Assembly: GCA_018242005.1 (NCBI GenBank) | Contig: JAFECU010000098.1 | Span: 1-38,053 of the forward strand | Direction: 5' to 3' | Length of the DNA: 38,053 nucleotides | Source: Pseudomonadota bacterium | Lineage (GTDB): Bacteria; Pseudomonadota; Gammaproteobacteria; Burkholderiales; Burkholderiaceae_C | Shown: positions 5,973 through 32,920 of the stretch, piece by piece | Layout of the letters: each line of letters starts with the position of its first letter | Position numbering within the stretch: the first letter of the stretch is position 1 | Notes under the pieces: generated by a model | Seen by the model: only the letters and a program-made list of their open reading frames with translations | Database searches by the model: none | Told to the model about the DNA's origin: nothing | Translations under genes and position numbers: made by a program

Positions 5973-5996
5973 CGTCAATGCCGCGATAACCACATA

Positions 5997-6043
5997 TTTG
6001 ATAGCTGTTCACGCTTACCCACCGGGCGTTAGAGCCCAATTTT
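5997..6043 (+). repeat. Comamonadaceae-type palindromic intergenic repeat, copy B
   Basis: TTTGATAGCTGTTCACGC, then an imperfect palindrome (ACCGGGCGTTAGAGCCC) and a T-run. It fills most of the 100-bp gap between the SDR gene and bktB and is in the opposite orientation to copies A, C and D. Its T-rich right end could serve as a weak terminator for the SDR transcript. Confidence 0.6.
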
Positions 6044-6072
6044 CTTGAAACCACCTCGTACAGGAGAGAACC

Positions 6073-22961: not shown

Positions 22962-23786
22962 TTACATGACCGTGGCCTGCATGCCCCGCATCAACCGTGG
23001 CTGTAGTGCCACCACCTCGCCCACCACGATGAGCGCCGGCGGTCGCACCCGGTGCTGCTGCGCCAGCTGCGGCAAGTCCTGCAGCGTGCCGGTAATGCAG
23101 CGCTGGCCCGGCAGCGATGCCTGCTCCACCAGGGCCGCGGGCATGCTGGCCGGCAGGCCGTGGCGCATGAGCTGATCGCAGATCACGGGCAGCGTGCCCA
23201 TGCCCATGTAGATCACCACGGTCTGGTGCGGGCGCGCCAAGGCCTCCCAGTCAAGTGCCACCTCGTTGTCGCCGCGCAGGTGGCCGGTGGCAAACACCAG
23301 CGTGGCCGCATGGTCGCGGTGCGTCAGTGGAATGCCCGCGCAGGCCCCAGCGCCCTGGGCTGCCGTGATGCCAGGCACCACGTCGAAGGAAATGCCGGCC
23401 TCGGCCAGGGCCAGTGCTTCCTCGCCGCCGCGGCCGAAAATGAAACCGTCGCCCCCCTTGAGCCGCACCAGGTTGCGCCCGCTGCGCGCCAGACGCACCA
23501 TGAGGTCGATGATGGATTCCTGCGGCAGCGTGTGGTGCGAGGACTCCTTGCCCACGTAGATCAGGTCGGCGTCCTCGGCAACATAGCGCAGCACCTCCTT
23601 GCCCACAAGGTGGTCGTAGAGCACCAGGCGGGCGCCGCGCAGGGCCTTGACGGCGCGCAGGGTGAGCAACTCGGGATCGCCTGGGCCAGCGCCCACCAGT
23701 GTCACTCGCCCCGGCGTGGCGGGCATGCCGGTAGCACCTGGTGCGGGTGTGGCGGTGAACCAGCGTGCATCTTCTATGAAACTCAT
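22962..23786 (-). CDS. cobA: uroporphyrinogen-III C-methyltransferase (NirE/CobA type)
   Basis: A 274-residue SUMT. The tetrapyrrole methylase fold opens VTLVGAGPGDPELLTLRA, followed by YDHLVG, the KGGDGFIFGRGGEE core, and GITAAQGAGACAGIPLTHR. It transfers two methyl groups from SAM to uroporphyrinogen III, giving precorrin-2, the first committed step to siroheme, cobalamin and heme d1. There is no CysG-type dehydrogenase/chelatase half. Being divergent from nirS with a shared DNR-type site, it is the nirE of this cluster (inference from position). AAGGAAAGG precedes the ATG at 23786; the 15-codon longer frame is not used. The start has a ~20-residue Pro/Gly extension before the domain. Confidence 0.92.
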   Translation of the reverse strand: MSFIEDARWFTATPAPGATGMPATPGRVTLVGAGPGDPELLTLRAVKALRGARLVLYDHLVGKEVLRYVAEDADLIYVGKESSHHTLPQESIIDLMVRLARSGRNLVRLKGGDGFIFGRGGEEALALAEAGISFDVVPGITAAQGAGACAGIPLTHRDHAATLVFATGHLRGDNEVALDWEALARPHQTVVIYMGMGTLPVICDQLMRHGLPASMPAALVEQASLPGQRCITGTLQDLPQLAQQHRVRPPALIVVGEVVALQPRLMRGMQATVM

Positions 23787-23851
23787 GTCGGCCTTTCCTT
23801 GGCGGATCGTGGTGTGGGCTCCATTGTTCAAAAACCACGCCGCTGCCGTCC

Positions 23852-27304: not shown

Positions 27305-28804
27305 ATGCAGACCGTGCAGCCCCCGCTCGACCTGGCCCTGCTCAACCCCTGGCAGCGCGGCTTTCCCCTGTGCCGTGAACCCTTCGCCCAGATCGGCCTG
27401 CAGCTGGGACTGGACGCCGCGACGGTGCTGGCCCACTATCAGCGCCTGCAGGACCAGGGCAGCCTGAGCCGCATCGGGGCGGTCTTTGCGCCCGGCGCGG
27501 GCGGCGCCTCGCTGCTCGCCGCCATGGCGGTGCCGCCCGAGCGGCTGGAGGCCGTAGCCGCCATCGTCTCCGGCCACGCGGGCGTCAACCACAACTACGA
27601 GCGCGAGCACCGCACCAACCTCTGGTTCGTCGCCACCGGGGCAGACGCCGTGCAGGTTGAACAACTGCTTCGCAGCATCGAAACCGATACCGGCCTGACC
27701 GTACAGCGCCTGCCCATGCTGCGGCCCTACCGCATCGACACCGGGTTCGACCTGCGCGCCAGCCAGTCGCTCGCCAGTGGCGCCACCCACTGGGCACAAA
27801 CCCCGCTGCGGATACAGGACCAACCGCTGGCGGCCCTGGCCGAGCGCGGCCTGCCCCTGGTCGAGCGGCCCTACGACCTATGGGCCGAACAACTGGAGCA
27901 GCCCGTGGACGCCGTGCTGGATACCCTGGAGCGCTGGCTGGACGAGCGTACCGTAAGCCGTTTTGGCGTGGTGGTGCGCCACCACGAGCTGGGCTTCACC
28001 GCCAACGCCATGACGGTCTTCGACGTGCCAGAGCACGAGGTGGACGCCTGCGGCGAGGCCCTGGCAAGGGTGCCGGGCGTGACCCTGGCCTACCAGCGCG
28101 CACGCACTCGGGACTGGCCCTACAACCTGTACTGCATGGTCCACGGGCGCGACCGCGACAGCGTGCACGCCACCGTCGCACGCGCGGTGGCCCAGGCCGG
28201 CCTGGCGGACAAACCGCAGGCCATGCTGTTCTCGCTGCGCCGCTTCAAGCAGACCGGTGCACGCCGTTTCACGCCGCCCGTGCCCGCCATGCCCCGCACC
28301 CCGCCCACCCATGAGAAGGAGCGCTGCATGCTCACGCCCGAAGATGCCCGCCTGATCGATCACCTGCACGGCGGCTTTCCGCTCGTCGACCGGCCGTTCG
28401 CCGCGGTGGGCCAGCAACTGGGCTGGAGCGAGGAGCGCGTGATAGAACGTCTGCACCAGCTGCTGGCCCAGGGGGTGTTAACCCGCTTTGGCCCGCTGTT
28501 CCAGATCGAACGCGCGGGCGGCCAGTTCGTCTTGGCGGCGATTGCCGTGCCGGAGGAGCGCTTTGACGTGGTCAACGCCGTGGTCAACAGCTTCCCAGAG
28601 GTGGCACACAACTACCGTCGCACGCACACGCTCAACATGTGGTTCGTCGTGGCCGCCGAATCGCCGGTGCGTGCGCAAGACGCCATCGCCCGTATCGAGG
28701 AAGCAGTGGGCCTGCCGGTGCTGGCCTTTCCCAAGGAAGAAGAGTATTTCGTCGAGCTGCGCCTGCCGGCCCTGACGGCCGCCGGAGGTGCCCATGGCGC
28801 TTGA
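27305..28804 (+). CDS. siroheme decarboxylase NirD-NirL-NirG fusion
   Basis: A 499-residue protein with three consecutive AsnC-like siroheme decarboxylase modules, each opening with a G(F/L)PL motif. Module 1, NirD-type, is at about 10-155 (Gly19; NHNYEREH with His96). Module 2, NirL-type, is at about 175-322 (Gly182; YQRARTRDWPYNLY). Module 3, NirG-type, is at 342-495 (Gly357; AHNYRRTH with His435). Together with NirH these proteins decarboxylate siroheme at C12 and C18 to 12,18-didecarboxysiroheme. NirD-NirL fusions are known; adding NirG in the same frame is unusual to me. Residues 323-341 are a Pro-rich linker. A strong Shine-Dalgarno and ATG sit at the module 3 boundary, so NirG may also be made separately. 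Confidence 0.88.
   Translation: MQTVQPPLDLALLNPWQRGFPLCREPFAQIGLQLGLDAATVLAHYQRLQDQGSLSRIGAVFAPGAGGASLLAAMAVPPERLEAVAAIVSGHAGVNHNYEREHRTNLWFVATGADAVQVEQLLRSIETDTGLTVQRLPMLRPYRIDTGFDLRASQSLASGATHWAQTPLRIQDQPLAALAERGLPLVERPYDLWAEQLEQPVDAVLDTLERWLDERTVSRFGVVVRHHELGFTANAMTVFDVPEHEVDACGEALARVPGVTLAYQRARTRDWPYNLYCMVHGRDRDSVHATVARAVAQAGLADKPQAMLFSLRRFKQTGARRFTPPVPAMPRTPPTHEKERCMLTPEDARLIDHLHGGFPLVDRPFAAVGQQLGWSEERVIERLHQLLAQGVLTRFGPLFQIERAGGQFVLAAIAVPEERFDVVNAVVNSFPEVAHNYRRTHTLNMWFVVAAESPVRAQDAIARIEEAVGLPVLAFPKEEEYFVELRLPALTAAGGAHGA
28316..28330 (+). promoter_or_regulatory. internal ribosome binding site and start codon for a separate NirG
   Basis: AAGGAG at 28316-28321 is followed after 6 bases by an in-frame ATG at 28328 (Met342 of the fusion), exactly where NirG homology starts. 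The -1 frame has a TGA at 28312-28314, just before this site, where a separate NirDL would be expected to stop. The site could yield a 158-residue NirG. Confidence 0.65.
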
Positions 28805-29273
28805 TGCATTCGACCGCGCACTGATTGCCGCCACGCAAGGTGGCCTGCCCCTGGTGGCCCGCCCCTACGAGGCCGTGGGCGCCATGCTCGGCGTCCCCGG
28901 CGAACTGGTGCGCGAACGCCTGGCACAGATGCTGGCCCAGGGCCTGATCCGGCGCATCGGCGCCGTGCCCAACCACTACCGCCTGGGCTACACCGCCAAC
29001 GGCATGAGCGTGTGGGACGTGGCCGATGAGCAGGTCGCCGAACTCGGCCGGCGCGTGGCCGAGCTGCCCGGCGTCTCCCACTGCTACCGCCGCCCGCGCC
29101 ACCTGCCGGGCTGGCCCTACAACCTGTTTGCCATGCTGCACGGCACCAGCCGCGAAGCCGTGGAGCGACAGGCTCAGGACATCGTGGCCCTGCTGGGCAC
29201 CGCCTGCCGCAGCCACGATATCCTGTACTCCACGGCCATCTTGAAGAAAACCGGCCTGCGCCTGAAGGATTGA
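28794..29273 (+). CDS. nirH: siroheme decarboxylase subunit NirH
   Basis: A 159-residue AsnC-like protein of the siroheme decarboxylase family. It carries the same GLPLVARPYEAVG opening as the fused modules, an HTH-like segment (VRERLAQMLAQGLIRRIG) and the NirL/NirH-type active block SHCYRRPRHLPGWPYNLF. It pairs with NirG, as NirD does with NirL, in making 12,18-didecarboxysiroheme. GGAGG lies 6 bases before the ATG at 28794, and the gene overlaps the last 11 bases of nirDLG. NirJ follows 4 bases after the stop. It is not a DNA-binding regulator despite the Lrp-like fold. Confidence 0.93.
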   Translation: MALDAFDRALIAATQGGLPLVARPYEAVGAMLGVPGELVRERLAQMLAQGLIRRIGAVPNHYRLGYTANGMSVWDVADEQVAELGRRVAELPGVSHCYRRPRHLPGWPYNLFAMLHGTSREAVERQAQDIVALLGTACRSHDILYSTAILKKTGLRLKD

Positions 29274-29277
29274 CCCC

Positions 29278-30489
29278 ATGTTTCGTATCAGCCAGTACAT
29301 GCGCGAACTCGCGCAGGCACAAGCCACGGGCAGCTACCCCGTCAGCCGCGACCGCAAGGCACGTGGCCCGGTCGTCATCTGGAACCTGATCCGCCGCTGC
29401 AACCTGACCTGCAAGCATTGCTACGCGCTCTCGGCCGACCACGACTACGCCGGCGAGCTGCTGCTGCCCGAGGTCTTTACGGTCATGAACGATCTCAAGG
29501 CCTTTGGCGTGCCCGCGCTCATTCTCTCGGGCGGCGAACCGCTCTTGCGCCCCGATATTTTTGAAATTTCCGCCCGTGCGCGGGAGATGGGCTTCTACAC
29601 CGGGCTCTCCACCAACGGCACGCTGATCGACGCCCCCATGGCGCAGCGCATCGCCGACGCCGGCTTCGACTACGTGGGCATCAGCCTGGACGGCCTCAAG
29701 GCCACACACGACAAATTCCGCCGGCTGGAGGGCGCGTTCGACCGCAGCCTCGCCGCCATCGGCCACCTCGACAAGGTGGGCGTCAAAGTGGGCCTGCGCT
29801 ACACCATGACGGCCATGAACGGCCACGACCTGCCCGCACTGCTGGATTTGATGCAGGAAGTCGGCGCGCACAAGTTCTACTTCTCGCATCTGAACTACGC
29901 CGGGCGCGGCAACATCCACCGCGATAAAGACGCCCACCACCAGGCCACGCGCGCCGCCATGGACATGCTGTTCGACCGCGCCTGGGCCGCCGCCCAGGCC
30001 GGCAGCATGGACGACTACGTGAGCGGCAACAACGACGCCGACGGGCCGTATTTGCTGCAATGGGTGCGCTCGCACCTGCCGCAATGGGAAGAGGCGCTGC
30101 ACGCGCGCCTCGTCGCCTGGGGCGGCAACGCGAGCGGCCAGCAGATTGCCAACATCGACAACCTGGGCCATGTGCACCCCGACACCATGTGGTGGCACCA
30201 CGACCTGGGCTGCGTGAGAGATCGCCCCTTCTCCGAGATCTGGAACGACGTGAGCGACCCGCTCATGGCCGGACTCAAGCAGCGCCCACGCCCGGTCGAG
30301 GGCCGCTGCGGCGGCTGCAAGCACCTGGCGATCTGCAATGGCAACACCCGCGTGCGCGCCCAGCAGCTCACCGGCAACTTCTGGTTTGAAGACCCGGGCT
30401 GCTACCTGACGGACACCGAAGTGGGCGCCGCCAGCACTCCGTTTGAACCCGCCAGACCCAAGCGCCGCATTGAAATCGCCCATGCCTGA
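29278..30489 (+). CDS. nirJ: heme d1 biosynthesis radical SAM protein NirJ
   Basis: A 403-residue radical SAM enzyme that, after siroheme decarboxylation, removes propionate side chains on the way to the C3/C8 oxo groups of heme d1. The 4Fe-4S motif CNLTCKHC (Cys41, Cys45, Cys48) is followed by SGGEPLL and the SAM-binding strands. C-terminal Cys residues at 312, 344, 347, 353 and 375 (CGGCKHLAIC) form the SPASM-like auxiliary cluster region. The start at 29278 lies 4 bases after nirH, and the end overlaps nirN by 8 bases. The length and order are standard for NirJ. Confidence 0.95.
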   Translation: MFRISQYMRELAQAQATGSYPVSRDRKARGPVVIWNLIRRCNLTCKHCYALSADHDYAGELLLPEVFTVMNDLKAFGVPALILSGGEPLLRPDIFEISARAREMGFYTGLSTNGTLIDAPMAQRIADAGFDYVGISLDGLKATHDKFRRLEGAFDRSLAAIGHLDKVGVKVGLRYTMTAMNGHDLPALLDLMQEVGAHKFYFSHLNYAGRGNIHRDKDAHHQATRAAMDMLFDRAWAAAQAGSMDDYVSGNNDADGPYLLQWVRSHLPQWEEALHARLVAWGGNASGQQIANIDNLGHVHPDTMWWHHDLGCVRDRPFSEIWNDVSDPLMAGLKQRPRPVEGRCGGCKHLAICNGNTRVRAQQLTGNFWFEDPGCYLTDTEVGAASTPFEPARPKRRIEIAHA

Positions 30490-32188: not shown

Positions 32189-32920
32189 ATGGACATCCAG
32201 CAATTCGACATTCCGCGCTATCTTGCAGCCCTGCCGCTGTTCCAGGAAATGACGCCTGCCGAATTGCAGCGCCTGGCCACGGGCTGCCGCCTGCGACGCT
32301 ACGCGCGTGGTGAATGCATCTTCCGCGTGGGCATGCCATGCGAGGAATTCCATGTCACGGTAACCGGCCAGGTCAAGCTGTTCGCGATCTCGCCCACCGG
32401 CCAGGAAAAGGTCATCGAACTCGCCGGCCCCGGTGTGAGCTTTGCCGAGGCGCTGATGTTCACCGACAAGCCCTACATCATCAATGCCCAGGCGCTGGCC
32501 GACGCCCTGGTACTCAACGTGGGCAAGGCGGCCGTGGTGCGCGAGATCGAGGACGACCCGCGCTTTGCCATGCACATGCTGGCGGGCATTTCGCGGCGCC
32601 TGCACGGCCTAGTGCACGACGTGCAGGCCTACTCGCTGCACAGCGGCATGCAACGCGTGATCGGCTATCTGCTGCACTCGCTGCCGGAGGACGGGCCCGG
32701 TTCCAACAACACGGCCTGCGCCCCCGCCTGCAAGGACGCAGTCGCACTCAATGTCTCGTTGCCCGTGAGCAAGGCCACCATCGCCTCGCGCCTGTCCATC
32801 ACGCCCGAGTATTTCTCCCGCGTGCTGCACGAGCTCGAAGTCGCCGGCCTGATCCGCATCGACAAGCGCGACATCCACATCCCCAATGCGGCGCGGCTCG
32901 CCAGCCACACCTTGCAATAG
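32189..32920 (+). CDS. Crp/Fnr-family regulator, DNR-like
   Basis: A 243-residue regulator. A cyclic-nucleotide-binding-like sensor domain (LPLFQEMTPAELQRL to about 120) is followed by the long dimer helix and a winged HTH near 180-235. The recognition helix ITPEYFSRVLHEL keeps the E-x2-SR residues that read TTGAT half-sites. There is no N-terminal Cys cluster, so it is not an oxygen-sensing FNR. This fits the DNR/NNR group, which respond to NO (via heme in DNR) and activate nir/nor/nos genes. Its position next to the nir operon supports that; the NO role is inference. It converges with maf, leaving 3 bases between stops. Two Cys residues (ACAPACKD) sit in a loop before the HTH, an oddity for the group. 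Confidence 0.87.
   Translation: MDIQQFDIPRYLAALPLFQEMTPAELQRLATGCRLRRYARGECIFRVGMPCEEFHVTVTGQVKLFAISPTGQEKVIELAGPGVSFAEALMFTDKPYIINAQALADALVLNVGKAAVVREIEDDPRFAMHMLAGISRRLHGLVHDVQAYSLHSGMQRVIGYLLHSLPEDGPGSNNTACAPACKDAVALNVSLPVSKATIASRLSITPEYFSRVLHELEVAGLIRIDKRDIHIPNAARLASHTLQ

Follow-up and report, generated by a model that had tools for sequence, protein, structure and literature searches.

A nirD-nirL-nirG reading frame shared by three congeneric bacterial species, with the nirG start sequence retained

The siroheme decarboxylase NirD/L/G/H is part of the synthesis of the heme d1 cofactor for denitrification. The stretch of DNA analysed here (the window, 38,053 nucleotides) holds nirD, nirL and nirG in one open frame, and this locus raises the question of whether the three genes are truly joined, how they came to be so, and whether NirG is also still made from its old start. 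The genes and modules concerned are the following.

27305..28804, plus strand: nirDLG fusion ORF, 499 aa; the same frame is open in genomes G001 (L004) and G006 (L003/L032)
27326..27754, plus strand: NirD module, alpha, AhbA-like, with His96/Arg100 of the HxYxR motif
27821..28282, plus strand: NirL module, beta, AhbB-like, with Leu261-x-Tyr263-x-Arg265 (LxYxR)
28328..28780, plus strand: NirG module, alpha, with His435/Arg439; its first codon is the retained nirG ATG (28328)
28794..29273, plus strand: nirH, separate, beta, HxYxR; its start is probably ATG 28794, within the last bases of the fusion ORF; SD GGAGGT
29278..30489, plus strand: nirJ, TIGR04051 at 612.5 bits against a cut-off of 515.45

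Three siroheme decarboxylase modules in a single frame, with NirH encoded apart, had been proposed in a first-pass annotation, and this reading is borne out by the open ORF (no internal stop across the 499 amino acids) and by the domain matches. Pfam finds AsnC_trans_reg2 (AsnC-like ligand-binding) and NirdL-like_HTH three times each in NirDLG and once each in NirH. The best family is AhbA/alpha for modules 1 and 3, and AhbB/beta for module 2 and for the separate NirH. With the NCBIfam models, the beta modules NirL and NirH score above the cut-off of 125 (167.3 and 168.1, respectively), whereas the alpha modules NirD and NirG, scored alone, remain below their cut-off of 140 (102.1 and 98.7), with AhbA still their best match. 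The surroundings are those of a heme d1 (nir) operon, nirH adjoining nirD-L-G and nirJ lying downstream with a score above its cut-off. A Crp/Fnr-type regulator (cNMP-binding plus HTH_Crp_2) is encoded at 32189-32920, just downstream of the nir cluster. A tetrapyrrole methylase gene at 22962-23831, on the minus strand, is divergent from the nir operon, and its family would make it nirE/cobA-like. The genome paper of Alicycliphilus denitrificans K601 mentions seven consecutive nir loci (PMC3692508); if these correspond to nirS to nirN, they would fit a fused nirDLG.

AhbA and AhbB have a conserved HxYxR motif, in which His115 of AhbA is on the iron, and His98, Tyr100 and Arg102 of AhbB have been proposed to act in catalysis, Arg102 by mutation (Palmer and co-workers, PMC4145669). 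Motif residues were assigned here by alignment with the solved structures, the numbering of the B chain being assumed to be offset by 20. HxYxR was found in D, in G and in NirH (His-Tyr-Arg). Both its His and its Arg are kept by NirD and NirG in all 118 loci compared, the window included, and the motif is present in NirH in 115 of the 118, the other three being unreadable. NirL, by contrast, reads LxYxR in every one of the 118, with leucine in place of the histidine. Because NirL lacks the histidine that NirH keeps, NirDLGH probably contains two alpha-beta pairs that are not equivalent; we found no statement on this leucine in the text consulted here of papers on siroheme decarboxylases. The fusion ties both alpha modules to the His-less beta module, and since the fully equipped beta module (NirH) is left outside, NirDLG should need NirH.

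The spread of the open frame was followed through samples of increasing breadth. In the genus sample, three of the eight genomes give a single stop-free match spanning all 499 amino acids (residues 2-499 in one of them), four carry nirDL and nirG apart, and one (78% complete) gave no match. The two fused genomes other than the window are 89% identical to it in protein and 87-89% in nucleotide sequence, and in one of them (G001) the locus sits in a 4,995,263-bp contig. Matches were obtained in 71 of the 299 genomes of the family sample (62 of them better than 1e-40), and among the matches listed a single stop-free full match was confined to the same three fused genomes; in G171 the single match has two TGAs inside. 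In the phylum sample, 51 of 398 genomes match, and among the matches listed the stop-free full match belongs only to the window genome, with full-length matches interrupted by stops in five others. Plasmid records gave 26 matches, all below 60% identity and each broken into one to three pieces at its best place. Finally, the frames of 118 distinct loci were checked by script. This set left out ten duplicates identical over the junction, L031 (without nirG) and the repeats L002 and L112-L123, and it still holds near-identical loci of different genomes. D, L and G share one frame in four of its loci, those of the three fused genomes of the genus and L069.

L069 (4776-6470) lies on a contig of a Bdellovibrionales MAG. 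Its D, L and G modules share a single open frame, its NirH is separate, and its fusion protein is 41% identical to that of the window. Its region 5973-6050, where the nirG start would be expected, has no in-frame ATG, GTG or TTG, and the nearest upstream in-frame ATG (5970) is in the linker. Being present in one MAG only, this fusion may be an assembly error or come from a mislabelled bin. If it is true, a DLG chain works without the usual NirG start, and so distant a second case suggests that the DLG chain recurs.

How the two reading frames came to be one can be followed at the junction, where the relevant features of the window are these.

28271..28327, plus strand: fusion linker, 57 nt (aa 323-341), the putative site of a net one-base change
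28312..28314, plus strand: TGA in the former nirDL frame, present only in the window genome of the three fused
28316..28321, plus strand: AAGGAG, the retained nirG ribosome-binding site, followed by a 6-base spacer and ATG (28328-28330)
28339..28341, plus strand: CGA at the site of the nirDL stop TGA of the unfused congeners

In the four unfused congeners, nirDL extends 14 bases into nirG and ends at a TGA overlapping nirG codons 4-5. L126 (G166), an unfused locus from another genus of the family, likewise has its nirDL stop, a TGA, at +11 in nirG, and the nirDL frame past the nirG start reads CAT-GCT-CAC in L126 as in the four congeners. At this +11 site the unfused loci have CCT-GA or CTT-GA and the fused species CCC-GA, so that the nirDL stop is gone. 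The first-pass annotation had pointed instead to a TGA in the -1 frame just before the nirG start. This triplet is present as described at 28312-28314, in the frame in which the nirG start reads (C)AT, but its interpretation as the lost nirDL stop fails: since both other fused genomes have CAG in its place, it is not the ancestral stop, and the stop of the congeners is the TGA at +11.

Linker length was taken as the number of nucleotides separating a conserved NirL anchor from the nirG ATG. The three fused loci measure 90, 90 and 84 nt (0 mod 3), thus varying in frame, by 6 nt, among the fused species, and all seven unfused junctions chosen for comparison are 1 mod 3. The nearest unfused junction, that of L126, is one base longer than that of the fused L004 (85 versus 84 nt). 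Linker lengths of 0 versus 1 mod 3 indicate a net loss of one base that put nirDL in the nirG frame. The frame offset, determined for 114 distinct unfused loci, was 1 in 79, 0 in 23 and 2 in 12, the offsets of distant loci being extrapolated from the alignment and less sure. The nirDL stop falls at +11 in 17 of these loci, at +14 in 16, and at or beyond the nirG start in 45. In the near relatives L034, L125, L133, L038 and L040 it precedes the nirG position by 49-115 bases, with an offset of 2 or 1. The linker has no repeats of 8 bases or more able to explain an indel. Alignment of the linkers is poor except with L126, which places the loss within the linker but not on a particular base, and the stop may have gone either earlier or later. 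The one-base linker deletion suggested in the first-pass annotation therefore stands as to linker length modulo 3, but it is not private to the window strain. The extra base that the annotation had envisaged in relatives is found in L126; however, nirDL stops inside nirG there and not at the position of 28312, and the fusion is real.

Taken together, these comparisons make it very probable that a net change of one base in the linker fused nirDL to nirG, giving a NirDLG chain alongside a separate NirH. The ancestor would have had nirDL and nirG as overlapping neighbours, and the change in the linker would have brought nirDL into the frame of nirG. This is the pattern of a fusion of overlapping neighbours, the genes being separate and overlapping in close relatives and in one frame in the derived group; overlapping coupled genes are a known class of frame transitions (PMC3711429). 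Because a ribosome starting at nirD meets no stop before 28802, the main product should be NirDLG, a single alpha-beta-alpha chain with the D:L:G ratio presumably fixed at 1:1:1. Together with NirH, made from its own gene, this chain is expected to form the siroheme decarboxylase NirDLGH, which would convert siroheme into 12,18-didecarboxysiroheme for heme d1.

The old nirG start sequence is intact in all three fused species. The AAGGAG, the 6 bases that follow and an in-frame ATG at 28328, already noted in the first-pass annotation, were confirmed (28316-28321 and 28328-28330); the ATG is in frame with the fusion ORF (28328-27305 = 3 x 341), and the AAGGAG-ATG position is that of the nirG start of close relatives. 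Translation could have a dual output, NirDLG and a separate NirG of 158 amino acids begun at the ATG at 28328, both in useful amounts, the extra NirG pairing with NirH. Such an output would be an addition to the fusion and is compatible with it. We regard it as plausible, although it falls somewhat short of probable, for the following reasons.

The SD and the ATG are unchanged in the three fused genomes, within a run of 31 identical nucleotides (28314-28344); only one identical run in the gene is longer. Several of the linker codons immediately before this run, by contrast, encode different amino acids in the fused species. Runs of at least nine identical codons number four in 502 columns: KERCMLTPE at the nirG start, and LALLNPWQR, GVNHNYEREH and QRLPMLRPYR, all in the NirD part. 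With 65% of 406 invariant degenerate columns having identical codons, eight in a row would arise by chance with a probability of about 0.03, a figure that is uncorrected and comes from three related species. The background for the signal consisted of 1848 internal in-frame ATGs from script-called genes of the window and of 400 kb of a fused congener, and it replaced, with a better gene filter, an earlier set of 973 internal ATGs, 4 of which had a 6-base core. A 6-base SD core at a spacing of 4-10 precedes nine of the 1848, two of these being the nirG site itself (window and congener), which leaves 7 of 1846 (0.4%) when that site is excluded. AAGGAG is also stronger than the AAAGAG of L126 in anti-SD duplex energy (-8.0 versus -2.1 kcal/mol).

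Against this, the SD is inherited, so that finding it in place is no independent sign that it is used. Its duplex energy is unremarkable, 127 of the 1848 internal ATGs (6.9%) being at or below -8.0 kcal/mol, and the unfused congeners measured, three in number, fall on both sides of it, at -9.4 (stronger) and at -5.8 and -6.5 (weaker). This comparison covered 18 loci, with rows L130, L010 and L048 (nirG start unlocated) and L052 (wrong ATG taken by the script) left out; within the window operon, the SD of nirD is poor (-2.7) and that of nirH strong (-13.2). Moreover, the nirG start is now embedded in a frame that is itself translated, and with the nearby stop a possible source of coupling has gone. 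Predicted local folding does not set the start apart in openness from those of unfused genes (unpaired 0.34-0.39 in the three fused against 0.30-0.44 in five unfused), and the L069 fusion does without a start codon at that place. The stronger proposal, that all three species make two products, a NirDLG scaffold and a free NirG pairing with NirH, appears rather unlikely. If it were true, D-L would be a non-canonical pair within the scaffold, to which a fully equipped G-H pair would dock, and the internal start would set the number of G-H sites; the pairs are so described because the beta-subunit histidine is missing from NirL in every locus read and kept by NirH.

Returning to the fusion itself, its history was examined in trees of 21 chosen rows. 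With D+L and with D+L+G the fused loci form one group (100/99). In the tree of nirG only, a short protein, the fused rows are broken up (3 changes) and are grouped in 0% of 200 bootstrap trees, although no starred branch forces the break-up; in that of nirH only, also a short protein, they are grouped at only 72/0. A spread of the fusion within the genus, the nir operon passing between species by transfer or recombination and not by descent alone, would account for the split nirG tree and for the weak nirH grouping, but it sits poorly with the firm group in the D+L and D+L+G trees and we consider it distinctly unlikely. The junction of the unfused L126 nearly matches that of the fused group, more closely than do those of the unfused congeners; together with the splitting of the fused rows in the nirG tree, this makes local recombination worth considering. 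A single origin, in an ancestor shared by the three congeneric species, is the simplest account, supported but not fully by the trees, and with only three fused species ancestry and selection are not well separated.

A one-base sequencing or assembly error merging two genes in the window genome, an option that the first-pass annotation had left standing and that the C-rich linker and the one-base difference modulo 3 from the unfused junctions might favour, is highly improbable and is refuted by the frame open across the junction in three genomes, two of them at 87-89% nucleotide identity to the window and one of these in a contig of nearly 5 Mb, with linker lengths differing among them by a multiple of 3.

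Fusions among siroheme decarboxylase genes are already known. Alpha-beta fusions, NirDL and archaeal AhbAB, have been published (PMC4835899, PMC3942049, PMC3004389, PMC11237513, PMC3403918). NirDL of Hydrogenobacter thermophilus (PDB 4ch7 and 4czc; organism of 4czc from PMC4835899) aligns to window residues 13-323 (E 5.2e-42), but it has two modules only against three here, and its beta half has SHCYQR, with the histidine, where the window NirL has TLAYQR. For AhbA/AhbB of Desulfovibrio desulfuricans (PDB 4czd and 4un1), chain A matches module 3 and chain B module 2, and the HxYxR motif recurs in D, G and NirH of the window (PMC4145669); these are two separate chains in one heterodimer, whereas the window system has four modules. 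In Pseudomonas aeruginosa, NirD, NirL, NirG and NirH together convert siroheme into didecarboxysiroheme, and the same four modules are named as four genes, three of which are fused in the window (PMC3942049). Among archaea, ahbA-ahbB fusions and an ahbAB-ahbD fusion have been published (PMC3004389, PMC11237513), so that fusion and fission of siroheme-pathway genes are a known theme, but the accessible text of these papers does not describe an alpha-beta-alpha chain with a separate beta protein. No description of a D-L-G fusion, or of the name nirDLG, was found in the accessible open-licence literature, and within it the D-L-G form is new.

The solved relatives found by sequence are two-part versions only. 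A natural alpha-beta-alpha chain, tying D, L and G 1:1:1, constrains the build of the four-part siroheme decarboxylase. The locus also offers a clean example of overlapping neighbours fused through a one-base change with the old start signal kept. Its practical worth is modest, as a ready-made natural construct for structural work on the NirDLGH complex.

Other candidates for a D-L-G fusion were also read. None of nine loci in which nirD and nirG had been given the same open-frame length proved to be one, all being separate genes or GH fusions, and equal open-frame length was therefore not used for calling fusions. Of eight further candidates from the phylum sample none was D-L-G fused, and at least two were contigs already counted. 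G and H lie in one open frame in 21 of the 118 loci (for example L011, L037, L062, L073 and L110); in this set G-H fusion is common and D-L-G fusion rare.
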